A stretch of 64,000 nucleotides of DNA from a virus, in the IMG/VR virus record IMGVR_UViG_3300043438_002264, positions 60,541-124,540 of that record; one strand, written 5' to 3'. Below are positions 17,835-63,169 of the stretch, one piece after another (position 1 is the stretch's first letter; each line of letters starts with the position of its first letter). A program made the translations under genes and the position numbers. The notes beneath the pieces were generated by a model. The model was not told the DNA's origin. It was given only the letters and a program-made list of their open reading frames with translations, and made no database searches.

Positions 17835-18158
17835 TTAGTTGCTAACAAGACCGTTAAGAGAAACTTCTCCAAGCTTAACGCCTGATGCTTCCTCAACAAT
17901 CTTGTAAACTGTAGGGAGATCTAGAATCTCCTCTAAAGCCTTTAAATCTTCAGCCAGTTCTGGCTTGTACTGCTTCATTGCGATTTGAACACAGTCCATC
18001 AAAATACTCATTGACTTGTCGTTATCCTCTGCAACTTCTGCAATACCCTCAAACTTCTTCATAAAAGGACGAAGCAAAGAAATCTTCAAGGGACGAACCT
18101 TGATCTCTGTTCCGTCAATTAGCTTAATTGTCTTTTCTTCGTATACTTCTGTGCTCAT
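17835..18158 (-). CDS. Tail assembly chaperone, short (G-like)
   Basis: A 107-residue protein immediately upstream of the tape measure. It is homologous along its length to the N-terminal half of the next gene: both have (K/N)xIxLIDGTEx, PLKI, the IAM(K/R)QY motif and LPT(V/I)YKI. It therefore corresponds to the short chaperone (G) that coats the tape measure, while the neighbour corresponds to the long GT form. In most siphoviruses both come from one gene by ribosomal frameshifting, whereas here they are separate genes. The Shine-Dalgarno GGAAGGAC lies 10 bases before the ATG, and a TATAAT box is at 18193-18198. Confidence 0.8.
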   Translation of the reverse strand: MSTEVYEEKTIKLIDGTEIKVRPLKISLLRPFMKKFEGIAEVAEDNDKSMSILMDCVQIAMKQYKPELAEDLKALEEILDLPTVYKIVEEASGVKLGEVSLNGLVSN

Positions 18159-18192
18159 ATTATTTTAGTCCTTCCGCTATGAGGCTTTACCT

Positions 18193-18198
18193 ATTATA
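18193..18198 (-). promoter_or_regulatory. -10 box before the short chaperone gene
   Basis: Minus-strand TATAAT preceded by ATGT, with about 28 bases of leader carrying the GGAAGGAC ribosome-binding site. It could raise expression of the short chaperone over the long one. Confidence 0.5.
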
Positions 18199-18211
18199 AC
18201 ATAAAAGGCTT

Positions 18212-18913
18212 TTAATTTATAGGCTTTTTGGTTAAATCTTCGTATCCAAGGCCCATCCCAATACCAAATCCTGCCTTTTGAGCATTAACCCCCTGTAGGG
18301 CAAGAACATCGTTTGCATTGGCAGCTTTACCACCACTAAAGACTTTGGCCTTCATTTCTTCCCATTTATTACCAGAACTATTCCCATTATTTTTATCTAA
18401 ATCTACCCCTTGCATTGCTGCAAGAAACTTTTTTTCCTGATAGTCTAAGTCTCTTTTAGATTCAAGAGTTAGCATTAGTTCTGGCATAGATAAAGATATC
18501 TCAAGCTCTTCATAATCTTTCCAAATACCAAGCAAAAATAGCTCAGCTTCAAGCTTTGCCAAATCTAGTTTTTCCCAAGAAGATCCGCTGTCTTCTGCCT
18601 GCTGCTTTACTGGATTTTCAGATTTTCCATCAATTTTTATTCCAGCAGCAATGTCTAAAATTTTATAGATTGTTGGCAAATTAACGCTGTCTTCTAGTTC
18701 TGATATAGTTGATATTTTAGGATAGTATTGCCTCATTGCTATTGCTGCACAATTTGACAAAAAGATAATAGCTTCTTCATCATTGTCAGCTGTTTTTACA
18801 AGCTCAAAAGCCTCCATAAACTGTCTTAAATATTTTATTTTTAGCGGTACCAGAGTTAGTTCTGTGCCATCTATAAGAGTAATGTTTTTTGATTCATATG
18901 CTTCTGTTGCCAT
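18212..18913 (-). CDS. Tail assembly chaperone, long (GT-like)
   Basis: A 233-residue protein from the ATG at 18913. I chose this over the upstream ATG at 18937 because it lies exactly 6 bases after TATACT (18920-18925). Residues 1-105 are paralogous to the short chaperone. The rest adds a T-like domain (SWEKLDLAKLEAELFLLG, then MPELMLTLESKRDLDYQEKK) and a flexible tail with ANANDVLALQGVNAQKAG. G-domain plus T-domain in one open frame equals the frameshift product GT of other phages. It probably recruits the major tail protein to the tape measure. Confidence 0.8.
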   Translation of the reverse strand: MATEAYESKNITLIDGTELTLVPLKIKYLRQFMEAFELVKTADNDEEAIIFLSNCAAIAMRQYYPKISTISELEDSVNLPTIYKILDIAAGIKIDGKSENPVKQQAEDSGSSWEKLDLAKLEAELFLLGIWKDYEELEISLSMPELMLTLESKRDLDYQEKKFLAAMQGVDLDKNNGNSSGNKWEEMKAKVFSGGKAANANDVLALQGVNAQKAGFGIGMGLGYEDLTKKPIN

Positions 18914-33666: not shown

Positions 33667-35022
33667 TTAGCAAGCAATTATGTCGCCAGCTATAAAGGTA
33701 TTGTCTCCGTCTGGCGTAATTAAATAAACAGTTTCCTCAATATTATCAAGAATTTGAACATCTTCAATAAGTACCTCTTCGAATTCTTCTTCCAAAGGGT
33801 TGTACTGCATAACTATATCTCCAGCAGCAATTGTGCCAGTTATTTCCCAAGCAAAAGTTTCAGTACCCTGTTTTTTTGCAAGAATGGGCTGAAGTTTTGA
33901 AAAGTGCTTTTTTGCATCAGAATTAAAAATTATTGTGTCTGTTACAACTTTAGAGGAAATGTCTTTTACATAAGCAAAATTGTGTTTAAGACTAGTTATC
34001 TGCTTATAAAAAACTTTTTCATGTTGATAGTCTAAATAGTCGTCGACATCAAACTCTTCCCAAATAGGACAGATTAGTTTATCTCCAATTTTAAGGTCTT
34101 CAGCTGCAACAAGAACAACCTCAAGGTAGTCATTTATTGTAGATATTTTAGTTTTTGATGCAATGCAGCTTGGAGCAAATCCAAAAGCCCTAAATGGGGC
34201 AAATCCAAAAGCATTAAAAGGATAGAAGTAAAATGGAGAAAAACTAAAAGCCATAAAAGGAGAAAAACCAAAAGCATTAAACGGTGAAAAGCCAAAAGCC
34301 ATAAAAGGAGAGAAACCAAAAGCACTAAACGGTGAAAAGCCAAAGGCTCCAAAAGGAGAAAAGCCAAAAGCTCCGAATGGAGCAAAAGAAAATGTAGTTG
34401 TAATAGAATTGGATGCTGCAGAAGCTAGAGAGTTTCCATTTGCATTAATAGCATAAACGGTATAAGTTTGTGCTGTAGCTGCTTCTTGGTTTACAGTAAC
34501 AGAAAGGTTAGCTGTTGGTCCACCTCCTGGAGTACCTCCAGCAAGGTTTGTCTTGCCATCAGAGGCTGTCCAAATATATCCTGTAATAGTTTTTCCGCCA
34601 GTATTTGGTGCAAGCCAGACAACTACGTCTTGGTTTGCATTTGGAGAAGACGCTGTTGGAGCTGCTGGAGTCGCTGGAACGGTAGTGATTAGTGTAGCTG
34701 TGGATGGATCACTGGGGGCACCTTCATCGCCTTCGCTATTAAATCCTGTTACAGTAAAAGTATATAAAATATTTGACTTAAGACCTGTAATAATTATTGG
34801 AGAAGAAGCTCCAGTGGCAGTTACGGTAGTTTCTCCAGCACTTGCCGCATAAATTTTATAGGAAACAGCTAGGTCTACAGAACTAAATTCAACAACTGCA
34901 GAACCATTGTCAAAAGGTCTATCTGTTCCTACATCATTTGCTGTTGGTGGACCTGGTGGTAGTGGAATTAGGAAATCATTTGCCGCTAGGGACTTTCTAC
35001 CAGTTCTTTTACTTACCGCCAT
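33667..35022 (-). CDS. FN3 - FSPF-repeat - Hint-domain tail protein
   Basis: A 451-residue protein with four parts. Residues 1-20 are a basic N-terminus. Residues 25-205 hold two FN3 domains. Residues 207-285 contain about eight repeats of FGFSPF(x)A. Residues 286-451 are a Hedgehog/intein (Hint) domain starting CIASKTKIS at Cys286, with a block-B-like stretch ending in His373 and a last strand YLITPDGDNTFIAGDI. The frame stops directly after AC. Inteins normally end in His-Asn before the next residue. Without Asn and without a downstream extein, splicing is not expected, but N-terminal thioester cleavage or ligation is possible. It probably sits on the fibre. Confidence 0.75.
   Translation of the reverse strand: MAVSKRTGRKSLAANDFLIPLPPGPPTANDVGTDRPFDNGSAVVEFSSVDLAVSYKIYAASAGETTVTATGASSPIIITGLKSNILYTFTVTGFNSEGDEGAPSDPSTATLITTVPATPAAPTASSPNANQDVVVWLAPNTGGKTITGYIWTASDGKTNLAGGTPGGGPTANLSVTVNQEAATAQTYTVYAINANGNSLASAASNSITTTFSFAPFGAFGFSPFGAFGFSPFSAFGFSPFMAFGFSPFNAFGFSPFMAFSFSPFYFYPFNAFGFAPFRAFGFAPSCIASKTKISTINDYLEVVLVAAEDLKIGDKLICPIWEEFDVDDYLDYQHEKVFYKQITSLKHNFAYVKDISSKVVTDTIIFNSDAKKHFSKLQPILAKKQGTETFAWEITGTIAAGDIVMQYNPLEEEFEEVLIEDVQILDNIEETVYLITPDGDNTFIAGDIIAC
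34170..34400 (-). repeat. In-gene tandem repeat encoding FSPF units
   Basis: Degenerate 21-24 base units (variants of GGCTTTTGGCTTTTCTCC on the minus strand) in tandem, in frame throughout, encoding the FGFSPF repeats of the Hint-domain protein. Copy number could change by slippage without breaking the frame. Confidence 0.75.
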
Positions 35023-48298: not shown

Positions 48299-49165
48299 AT
48301 GAAAAAGTATGGAAAATATTATTATTTAAATAATCGGCAAATCAACCTTTTTAAAAATAATTTATCTTTTAATCTTAAAAATTATCCTAATTTTACTGAT
48401 GAGTCTCAAGGAATCACCTATACTTTTAATAATCTTGGATACAGATCTGACGATTTTTCTAAAGAAGCAGCTTCTGATAATTTTCTCTTTGCTGGCTGTT
48501 CTTTTACTTTTGGGACTGGAGTTCCTTATGAAAATAGCTGGGGATATGAATTAAATAAACAGCTTAACGGAAATCATTTTTATAATATTTCTGAAGCTGG
48601 AAGAAATGCTCAAGTAATTGTTAATGAAATTTATCAATATATTAAATTATTTGGAAAACCTAAAAAGGTTTTTGCAATGTTTCCTAACATGGATAGAGAT
48701 TATTCTATTAGTTTTAATAATGATGATCTTTATGGATTACATTATAAGATAGAGCCTGTTGGTCTATTAAATCCTGGCGGAAAAAGTTTTAAAACAGATG
48801 ATGACTTTTACACGATTTTTAATTATATAAAAATTGAAACATTGTTTTATGATTTTTATCATGCAGTATCTCAATTAGAAGATTACCTAGAGTTATTAGG
48901 AGTCCCGTTTTTATGGACAACCTGGAATGAAAATTTAGCTGAATCTTTAAGGGGCGAGCCAATATTCAAAAATTATTTTGAGCTTGATTTTAATGGTTTT
49001 GGAGAATATCGAAAAGAAAATTTTTATCCGCCAAAAAGTCTCGGCAAAAATAGAAAGTTTTGGCTAGAGGGGGCTGATAAGCCTGGCCCACATCCAGGTA
49101 TTTTAGAGCATAAATATTTTGCTTTTCAATTTTTAAAAAAGCTCGACGAAATAGAGAATACCTAA
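48299..49165 (+). CDS. SGNH/GDSL-like hydrolase
   Basis: A 288-residue protein. Block I is FLFAGCSFTFGTGVPYENSW (Ser68), block II ISEAGRNAQVIVNEI (Gly and Asn), and block III FAMFPNMDRDY. A C-terminal DKPGPHPGILEH gives Asp260 and His265, the usual DxxH pair. These enzymes remove acyl or acetyl groups from lipids, glycans or peptidoglycan. No signal peptide is present. The codon usage is very AT-rich, more than the neighbours, which may signal separate acquisition. The ATG is 6 bases after TAAACT. Confidence 0.75.
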   Translation: MKKYGKYYYLNNRQINLFKNNLSFNLKNYPNFTDESQGITYTFNNLGYRSDDFSKEAASDNFLFAGCSFTFGTGVPYENSWGYELNKQLNGNHFYNISEAGRNAQVIVNEIYQYIKLFGKPKKVFAMFPNMDRDYSISFNNDDLYGLHYKIEPVGLLNPGGKSFKTDDDFYTIFNYIKIETLFYDFYHAVSQLEDYLELLGVPFLWTTWNENLAESLRGEPIFKNYFELDFNGFGEYRKENFYPPKSLGKNRKFWLEGADKPGPHPGILEHKYFAFQFLKKLDEIENT

Positions 49166-49233: not shown

Positions 49234-49431
49234 ATGGGAGACGTAACATTCTTTGATCTATTTGATCCTAACAAGCCTAGAAGCGACAAAGAGCTTATTG
49301 AGCAAAGGCTGGCAATTTGCAATACTTGCCCAGCTTTTAGACCTAAAACACAACGCTGCAGTAAATGTGGCTGTTTTATGCAATTAAAAAGCACTCTCCT
49401 ACAAGCTAAATGTCCGATTGGAAAATGGTAA
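49234..49431 (+). CDS. Small zinc-binding protein (CxxC-CxxCxC), right-arm copy
   Basis: A 65-residue protein from the ATG at 49234. CNTCPAF, CSKCGCFMQLKSTLLQAKCP and the end IGKW match the late-arm paralogue at 43316-43555. The N-terminus (GDVTFFDLFDPNKPRSDKEL) is different. Six Cys are spaced for a zinc ribbon. It overlaps the start of the methyltransferase gene, which suggests coupled translation. Confidence 0.75.
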   Translation: MGDVTFFDLFDPNKPRSDKELIEQRLAICNTCPAFRPKTQRCSKCGCFMQLKSTLLQAKCPIGKW

Positions 49432-50327
49432 AAATGTTAAATGAAAGATACTACACTAAAGACGCCTCAGAGCCTTTCCTAGCCCCTGAAAGCATAGACC
49501 TGTTCGTAACCCACCCACCATACTTTAATCTCAACAGTGAGGCGTATGGCAACCCTGAGGGGCAATTGCAGAACACTGGTGACAGAGAAGTTTTTGTAAA
49601 TAAGATTATTGGTGTTATTAAGCATATGGAAATGGCGTTAAAGCCTACTGGAACCATTCTTATTGGATTTCCAACAGACCCAAATATCTATAAAATAATT
49701 GAAAAAATTAACCAAGAAACAAAATTACAATATGGTCCAATGTTTTATTGGGATTTTACGGGAAGTGGTCACTTGGGTGGCAAAGTTGTCGGGGTAGAGA
49801 ATAATATCTTTTTAAACCTTCATAAGGGAGAACAATACGTAAGTCCAGACTATAAGCTAGATAGCTATACTTTGGTTCATCATTGGCTTATTCCAGATGA
49901 GCTAGTGAAAAAAAGCTATGTGGCCTTTGTTAATGATTCGGCACCAAAGATAGTTTATGAGAGGTTAATTGGCAGACATTCTAAGCCAGGAGATGTAGTT
50001 GCTGATCTTATGGCTGGCACTGGAATGGTTTTAAGTGTGGCCAAGGAAATGGGCAGAGAAGTAGTGTATAATGATATATCCACAGAGCAACTAAAACTAG
50101 CAAAAATGATAATAGACAATGAAGAGGAGACACAAGTGGAGTTAAAAAGAAAAGAAGTAATTGAGCTTATGACCAAAGAGCTTATAGATATGAATTTGGC
50201 TATGGCGACTAGTCAGTCAATTCCAAATGAGCAAATTCAAGAATATATAAAGCATGCTACTTTTGAGTTTAATAGGGTTAATGCGATTTTATTTGATATG
50301 CTCGTTCAGCGTGGGGTTATCCGATGA
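49410..50327 (+). CDS. DNA methyltransferase, beta-class order
   Basis: Up to 305 residues. The target motif IV-like THPPYF (residues 34-39) comes before the S-adenosylmethionine motif ADLMAGTG (198-205) and the acidic YND (220-222), the order of beta-class N6-adenine or N4-cytosine methyltransferases. Usually motif IV is (D/N/S)PP(Y/F/W). His at the first position here is unusual and could lower activity or alter the target. No restriction enzyme is adjacent, so protection of phage DNA or gene regulation is more likely. ATGs at 49410, 49425 and 49434 are all possible starts. Confidence 0.75.
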   Translation: MSDWKMVKMLNERYYTKDASEPFLAPESIDLFVTHPPYFNLNSEAYGNPEGQLQNTGDREVFVNKIIGVIKHMEMALKPTGTILIGFPTDPNIYKIIEKINQETKLQYGPMFYWDFTGSGHLGGKVVGVENNIFLNLHKGEQYVSPDYKLDSYTLVHHWLIPDELVKKSYVAFVNDSAPKIVYERLIGRHSKPGDVVADLMAGTGMVLSVAKEMGREVVYNDISTEQLKLAKMIIDNEEETQVELKRKEVIELMTKELIDMNLAMATSQSIPNEQIQEYIKHATFEFNRVNAILFDMLVQRGVIR

Positions 50328-60460: not shown

Positions 60461-60786
60461 TGCCAGAGACACTACATTCAGATAAGAGAGCTATCCTTGC
60501 TCAAATGTGGGAAGAGGACAGAGAGAATCTGGCTCTTCAGAAATTGTTTGAGTATGGAGATATTGGATTTCCACTCGCAAGCTCTATAGAGAATGATATT
60601 GTTGCCAGCACCTTAGTAGCAGAAAAATACATTGAGGATTTGTGGAATGTAATGCTTCAGTATTTTGGTGTTGAGGATACAGGAGAGTATGACCACTGGA
60701 CGGACATCGCAGATGCGGCTGGTTGGGAGTGGGTAGAAAACTCAGAAGTTCCAGCGTATCTTGAAAAGTTAGAAAAAGAAAACTAA
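60460..60786 (+). CDS. Small acidic protein, tandem paralogue 2
   Basis: A 108-residue protein, related to the preceding gene over 70 residues with an added C-terminus (HWTDIADAAGWEWVENSEVP). The ATG overlaps the upstream stop (TAATG). It ends the last large plus-strand cassette. Confidence 0.65.
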   Translation: MPETLHSDKRAILAQMWEEDRENLALQKLFEYGDIGFPLASSIENDIVASTLVAEKYIEDLWNVMLQYFGVEDTGEYDHWTDIADAAGWEWVENSEVPAYLEKLEKEN

Positions 60787-61847: not shown

Positions 61848-61923
61848 TGGTGCCCTCAGTTGGACTCGAACCAACACTGAATAGATTTTAAGTCTACTTC
61901 CTCTGCCATTGGGATATGAGGGC
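61848..61923 (-). tRNA. tRNA with anticodon UAA (Leu, UUA codons)
   Basis: Seventy-six bases that fold canonically: acceptor GCCCTCA / TGAGGGC, D stem TCC/GGA with loop G18G19, anticodon stem GTAGA / TCTAT with loop CTTAAAA (anticodon UAA at 34-36), variable loop TCAGT, T stem GTTGG / CCAAC with loop TTCGAGT, discriminator A and encoded CCA. Leu tRNAs normally have a long variable arm; this one has only 5 bases. It should help read the UUA codons that are frequent in this AT-rich genome. Confidence 0.93.
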
Positions 61924-62410: not shown

Positions 62411-63169
62411 TTAGTTATTAGTTTCAATAATACGGGTGTATGTAATATCGCTATTGCCGTTGCCTTTAGCCCAGTTTTTTATCGAACGAACTTCAGTCCT
62501 GTCTCCTGGCTTACCCCCAGCGTGGATCATTTCGTCAGGGCCTATATAGATTCCGATGTGATAGGCACTACCATAACTTTGATAGTTAAAAGACACAAGG
62601 TCCCCAATCTTAGGAACAGTGACAATGGCTCCAGATAGTCTTTGCTTTGTTGCACTGTGCTCTAGATCAACACCCAGGTGAGCATATGTCCACATAACCA
62701 TTCCTGAGCAGTCCCAAGCTGATGGCGTGGATCCGCTAAAGACCCAAGGTGTTTTTCCAATTTGCTTTTTAACCAAGACTAAAGTTTCATTCAACTTCTT
62801 GGTATCGCTGGCAACTTTTTCCAGTCTGGCAATCTCTGCCTCTAGCTCATCTTGTTTTTTCTCAGCGTCGGACTTGAGCTTATCCTTTGCTGCCTTCTCC
62901 TGAGCCATCCAATCAACGGAACCAACAAGTGGTGCGTCTGAAGCCAGGACTGGCCCAACTGCCAACTCTAGAGCCTTCACTGGCCCTGAGAAGATAACTT
63001 CTGTTGTTACTGGAGAATCAATTACTGGTGTTGGCTTTGTTACTTGTGTTACTGGTTGTTCTATGTTTGATGACTCAGTTGACTCTATCATAGCTCCAAA
63101 AGCTACTCCAGTGCCACTTGTCAGTAGCAGTGCAATCATACCAATTGCTATGAACCTTTTTTCTTTCAT
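62411..63169 (-). CDS. Secreted NlpC/P60 peptidoglycan hydrolase with coiled coil
   Basis: A 252-residue protein. Signal peptide 1-26 (RFIAIGMIALLLTSGTGVAF). A Thr/Val/Pro linker follows to about residue 80, and a coiled coil at 88-136 (KLKSDAEKKQDELEAEIARL). The NlpC/P60 domain spans 137-252 with Cys154 (WDCSGMVMWTYAHLG), His204 (AYHIGIYIG) and His216 (MIHAGG). Such enzymes cut D-Glu-DAP type bonds. A signal peptide and lone location argue for a host-wall-active enzyme, possibly endolysin-like or expressed during infection to change the wall. The leader is about 110 bases long. Confidence 0.9.
   Translation of the reverse strand: MKEKRFIAIGMIALLLTSGTGVAFGAMIESTESSNIEQPVTQVTKPTPVIDSPVTTEVIFSGPVKALELAVGPVLASDAPLVGSVDWMAQEKAAKDKLKSDAEKKQDELEAEIARLEKVASDTKKLNETLVLVKKQIGKTPWVFSGSTPSAWDCSGMVMWTYAHLGVDLEHSATKQRLSGAIVTVPKIGDLVSFNYQSYGSAYHIGIYIGPDEMIHAGGKPGDRTEVRSIKNWAKGNGNSDITYTRIIETNN

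Follow-up and report, generated by a model that had tools for sequence, protein, structure and literature searches.

Duplicated tail assembly chaperone genes as a probable replacement of a programmed frameshift in a clade of environmental phages related to Streptomyces phages

In most long-tailed phages a single gene encodes two helper proteins for tail assembly, an abundant short one and a rare long one that arises when the ribosome slips. This G/GT frameshift is among the most widely conserved phage recoding events, and the reason for its retention is an open question. The DNA analysed here (the window; 64,000 nucleotides, positions 60,541 to 124,540 of the 124,540-base IMG/VR virus record IMGVR_UViG_3300043438_002264) carries two genes at the corresponding place, a long gene of the GT type and a short gene of the G type, and we describe their relationship, their upstream signals and their probable origin.

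In phage lambda the short and long products, gpG and gpGT, have a common N-terminal domain and are encoded between the tail tube and tape measure protein (TMP) genes; approximately 30 G are needed per GT, and G coats the tape measure while T binds the tail tube protein (PMC5009743). The locus described here is alike in gene position and in its short and long products with a shared N-terminal domain, but has one gene for each product where lambda makes GT by −1 frameshifting (PMC5009743). Homologous G and T domains, at the same position between the major tail protein (MTP) and TMP genes, are found in phages of the Stanwilliamsviridae (Circinus, Sham, Coruscant and Navo) and in Rhodococcus phage Trina; unlike the window, these have a single G gene with T in the −1 frame and a slippery site, and neither a second G nor a leaderless GT.

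Separate genes have a precedent. T4-like phages, as summarised in PMC10885494, have a separate short gene and a fused long gene without a frameshift (Vladimirov, Gautam and Davidson 2022), the arrangement that is also found here; going by that summary, frameshifting is not required for this class of chaperone and the concept is not new. The T4-like phages are, however, a different phage group, likened to this locus by gene arrangement as described there and not by homology, whereas the locus described here has sister lineages that have kept the frameshift, and both of its copies have conserved upstream signals. Other siphophages annotated without a chaperone frameshift are some Microbacterium EA phages (subclusters), described as having no evident one (PMC7302621), and mycobacteriophage subcluster B4, in which annotators find none (PMC8248883); unlike the window, these have separate open reading frames (ORFs) or a single gene, and the annotation passages of those papers describe no duplicated G domain. 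As far as the literature consulted shows, what is new is that sister lineages differ by a duplication through which a frameshift was lost, together with a conserved split of the upstream signals.

Two paralogous genes between MTP and TMP

Transcription on the minus strand would pass through MTP, long, short and TMP in that order. The MTP gene (19670-18993) is identified by matches to PHROG 885 (E 2.8e-4) and PHROG 2175 (E 9.6e-31) and by synteny with Streptomyces phages. The long gene runs from an ATG at 18913 to a stop at 18212 and encodes 233 amino acids; the listed ORF of 241 amino acids begins at a TTG further upstream, and we took the ATG as the start. The short gene (18158-17835) encodes 107 amino acids. 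The TMP gene (17816-9684, 2710 amino acids; Pfam PhageMin_Tail, E 4e-24, and synteny) begins directly 3′ of it, 18 nt beyond its stop. Both chaperone genes thus lie where the original prediction, made from the letters of the window alone, had placed them (17835-18913), and the pair sits between MTP and TMP.

That prediction had also called the two products clear paralogues and read a T-like extension in the long frame, and both points are borne out. The proteins are identical at 45 of 102 aligned positions (44%; 72% positive, BLASTP E 5e-28), and PHROG 10504 matches the N-terminal parts of both (approximately 5e-21). PHROG 10474, which represents the T part, matches only the long protein (residues 130-213, 1.7e-14), so that the long protein consists of a G-like region (approximately 1-95), a linker and a T-like region (approximately 110-225) in a single open frame. 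The T part aligns with T of the Streptomyces phage (Stanwilliamsviridae) chaperones (SSWEKLDLAKLEAELFLLGIWK versus STWEELDLAKLEAEVFLLGMWK). The short product ends like the 0-frame product of the frameshifting relatives (KLxDxxLL..), and the long product continues like their −1 product. Structure prediction had been named as a possible refutation of homology; instead, the AlphaFold models of the two proteins share their order of elements (E9-12, E18-21, H26-40, H45-63, ...), and the best BFVD match of the short model is a predicted tail assembly chaperone (E 2.8e-7, TM 0.76/0.78), with N15 GT matched weakly. Weak Pfam matches to DUF4778 and Rubis-subs-bind were rejected, and no chaperone family scored above the Pfam cut-off for either protein. 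The pair most likely functions as tail assembly chaperones equivalent to lambda G and GT.

Relatives were collected from INPHARED and IMG/VR, taking the best 80 loci per scan; the resulting sets, some of whose loci overlap on one contig, are samples rather than a census, and counts of upstream signals and codons refer to 103-124 distinct loci. The 127 matching INPHARED records all come from Streptomyces phages, and each matches at a single place; those listed are approximately 120–136 kb, and those inspected have G followed by T in another frame between MTP and TMP, the T product of Sham being annotated as joined. Two architectures were found. A fused GT followed by a separate G is present at 253 loci (124 distinct), all environmental and from the IMG/VR scans, and the window belongs here; every complete locus of this two-gene clade has T fused in frame. 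G with T in the −1 frame is present at 91 loci (54 distinct), comprising the Streptomyces phages and a second group that we label freshwater, in our reading of the sample series. The original prediction had suggested a search for intermediate states among relatives, but neither a GT with a frameshift nor a fused GT alone was found in six viral-contig scans and one genome-contig scan; the simplest explanation of apparent GT-only, T-G and G-T-G cases is that the contig ends there. Since the same arrangement recurs in 124 distinct loci, it is not an assembly artefact.

The chaperone, major capsid protein (MCP) and portal share approximately 37–49% identity with those of Stanwilliamsviridae, and by these identities the phage is related to the Streptomyces phages of that family, a kinship by relatedness and not by taxonomy criteria. 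One locus of the freshwater frameshift group (L271, CAINGU010000031.1) is a phage contig of approximately 110 kb inside a metagenome-assembled genome labelled as a cyanobacterium; since it has a tail module of the frameshift type seen in actinophages, it is probably mis-binned.

Slippery sites in relatives and in the two-gene clade

Each of the 54 distinct frameshift loci has a slippery heptamer, CCCAAAY or CCCGGAA, lying in frame (C CCA AAY or C CCG GAA) at an 'ND-P' position at which the T frame either opens or is already open. In 16 of these (Stanwilliamsviridae loci L161, L162 and L246-L258) an invariant CCCGGAA replaces the canonical X XXY YYZ, and a slip at this heptamer would involve poor matching in the A site. 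In the freshwater loci (L271-L349) CCCAAAC is followed by a near-invariant stretch with the inverted repeat CTAGTT-GGGACG-AACTAG, which takes in the G stop codon and by eye could form a stimulatory hairpin.

The two-gene clade has lost these sites. Canonical heptamers occur at the fused G/T junction of the long gene in 9 of 103 loci and in frame at the 3′ end of the short gene, where the original prediction had proposed to look for them, in 6 of 103, both background rates; per codon they are at or below background in the two regions (0.0026 versus 0.0039 and 0.0020 versus 0.0029), and we rejected candidate remnants of slippery sites on these grounds. Few stretches of the long gene vary as much as the junction linker. 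T is present only in the long frame, and the short gene has no slippery site that would lead into one; the long product of this clade is not one of programmed frameshifting. The predicted replacement of the −1 frameshift by duplication thus agrees with a heptamer that is kept in all 54 distinct frameshifting loci and gone from the duplicated clade.

Upstream signals and codon usage of the two copies

An intrinsic terminator lies 3′ of the MTP gene on the minus strand (18965-18930), with a hairpin CTGTCCAG-tctttttagg-CTGGGCAG (18965-18940) followed by TTTTGTTTTT (18939-18930). A crude first test recovered a terminator before the long gene in 71 of 103 loci, and an explicit stem-plus-U-tract test in 116 of 124, compared with 0.8% of shuffles; none of the 124 loci has one between the long and short genes. 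A generic sigma-70 and terminator scan missed the sites described in this section because its criteria included a −35 box and a strictly defined stem and loop, and comparative counts were used instead.

The long gene has a −10 box, TATACT, 6 nt 5′ of its ATG (18925-18920, minus strand), without the extended −10 TG in the window itself. Across the clade TANNNT lies 6–9 nt 5′ of the ATG in 103 of 103 loci, preceded by TG in 92 (shuffles, 1.8), and a Shine-Dalgarno (SD) motif in none of the 103, the pairing energy being no better than in shuffled sequence. Leaderless genes, which are frequent in Actinobacteria, are marked by a TANNNT approximately 12 bp before the start codon (PMC3160421). The long gene has this combination of a −10 box near the ATG and no SD, and GT is therefore probably translated from a leaderless mRNA that would start behind the terminator. 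About ten further starts in the window have TGNTANNNT 5–9 nt before the ATG (at 1921, 27225, 30804, 32191, 42395, 43053, 43803 and 47627 on the minus strand, and at 48299 and 49234 on the plus strand), and this phage seems to use leaderless expression widely.

The short gene is preceded, in the 53-nt gap after the long gene, by an extended −10 promoter element, TGTTATAAT (18201-18193, minus strand), 34 nt 5′ of its ATG, and by the SD sequence GGAAGGA (18175-18169, minus strand). The exact element TGNTATAAT is present in 98 of 103 loci (shuffles, 0.4) and an SD motif in all 103. The −10 hexamer is the consensus TATAAT in 98 of 103 short genes and in 15 of 103 long genes, and the median SD duplex energy is −10.2 kcal/mol for short genes versus −2.9 for long genes. 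The G gene of the frameshifting relatives has a led-type start resembling that of the short gene, with strong SD pairing in 54 of 54 loci, TGNTANNNT in 53 of 54 and a leaderless box in none; the Streptomyces phages share this TGNTANNNT plus SD arrangement.

Codon adaptation, scored against the MCP gene, is 0.624 for the short gene and 0.458 for the long gene (MTP, 0.703; MCP, 0.713), and is higher in the short gene in 103 of 103 pairs. The promoter, ribosome-binding-site and codon-usage signals together suggest that G is made strongly and GT weakly, and we infer that transcription and initiation determine how far G exceeds GT. The original prediction had attributed the ratio to separate promoters; each copy does have its own conserved upstream signals, but promoters are not the sole apparent control, initiation and codon usage contributing as well. 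The upstream signals thus look like a readable replacement of the frameshift.

Origin of the two-gene arrangement

The G domains of short genes (SH-aLRT 99), frameshift loci (99) and long genes (86) form separate groups, which argues for one duplication before the clade radiated and against later homogenisation of the copies. An MCP tree likewise places the two-gene phages in one clade (100/100), apart on a long stem. As the root could not be placed with that tree, we used Trina to root the T domain; this phage has homologous G (E 1.7e-9) and T (E 2.7e-19) in a −1 relation near GGGAAAA. This GGGAAAA is in frame, and the annotation of the Trina chaperone (locus L355, 8703-9514) as two separate genes has probably overlooked a frameshift; the Grayson chaperone is annotated as joined. 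With this root the fused type and the freshwater frameshift phages form a clade (support 96) with the Streptomyces frameshift phages outside, and the two-gene state is therefore derived from a frameshifting ancestor. Both copies are under strong purifying selection (dN/dS 0.056 for long, 0.040 for short). Evolution is slower in the short G than in the long one (mean path 0.59 versus 1.04), and across the same 98 pairs dS is about one third as high for the short gene as for the long gene (0.35 versus 1.12).

We propose that a duplicated G and a fused GT have very probably replaced the ancestral frameshift, with the excess of G over GT provided by separate expression. The ancestor would have had one gene giving both products through −1 frameshifting at a CCCAAAY-type site. 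The G part would have been duplicated on the stem of the environmental clade, either by copying of the whole G-T unit and loss of T from the second copy or by copying of G alone; the upstream copy would have become fused in frame to T, without an SD site, and the downstream copy, with its consensus promoter and ribosome binding site, would have remained as G alone. In the present phages transcription of MTP would end at the terminator just before GT, GT would be made at a low level from its own, probably leaderless promoter and by read-through, and G, with its strong SD—and probably TMP behind it—would be expressed from the strong TGNTATAAT promoter. The G excess given elsewhere by a frameshift would here probably come from rates of transcription and initiation.

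Several observations weigh against this account. A fold search of the PDB, like one by sequence, gave no significant match to any solved structure; 8 of 124 loci fail the terminator test, yet show imperfect hairpins by eye; the long-G clade is supported at only 86; the root of the MCP tree is weak (73/39); and the Trina-rooted T tree was built from 116 columns and its outgroup branch is long. Recombination (exchange between relatives), as well as codon selection for high expression, could lie behind the low dS of the short gene.

Other explanations can be set against the same data. The two genes might merely add to a frameshift still in use, the long gene slipping out at the G/T junction or the short gene slipping; A-rich heptamers lie near the junction in a few long genes (the 9 of 103), including one locus (L158) with an in-frame CCCAAAT, but with heptamers at or below background in both regions, a highly variable linker, and the TMP gene rather than a T-like frame after the short gene, we regard this as extremely unlikely. 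It is very unlikely that the two-gene state is ancestral and that one copy was later lost to give the frameshift type. An unrooted T tree does split the fused and frameshift types by a single branch, so that direction rests on the root; the Trina root, however, nests the fused clade with the freshwater frameshift phages, Trina and Grayson are themselves of the frameshift type, and frameshifting is general in long-tailed phages (PMC5009743).

A different job for the short copy, for example as a TMP-specific chaperone, would mean functional divergence instead of a ratio system. The antiquity of the copies, seen in their separate clades, the slower evolution of the short one and its apparent presence on a shared transcript with TMP would all fit, but the short protein keeps the length and the C-terminal tail of the relatives' 0-frame product. 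We consider divergence of this kind improbable; it also overlaps with replacement of the frameshift by duplication, because TMP binding is already a known role of G.

Among other features of the window, a minus-strand gene at 33667-35022 encodes a fibronectin III protein with repeated FGFSPFxAFGF units (Pfam gives fn3 only) and, by eye, a C-terminal Hint or intein-like module. An NlpC/P60 protein (62411-63169) and a tRNA-Leu (TAA) (61848-61923) are encoded on the minus strand, and a DNA methylase (N6_N4_Mtase; 49410-50327) on the plus strand.

A leaderless GT combined with an SD-led G might also turn a fixed ratio into a variable one, making G:GT and tail assembly regulatable during infection, as ribosome state and promoter timing may not affect the two kinds of mRNA alike; we offer this only tentatively and think it rather doubtful. 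For annotators, the locus is a warning against forcing a joined gene where none exists. A large natural group that would have given up the frameshift, with frameshifting sister groups on the same tree, makes it possible to ask what such a replacement needs; here the set comprises two genes, a terminator, a weak and probably leaderless start, and a strong led start.
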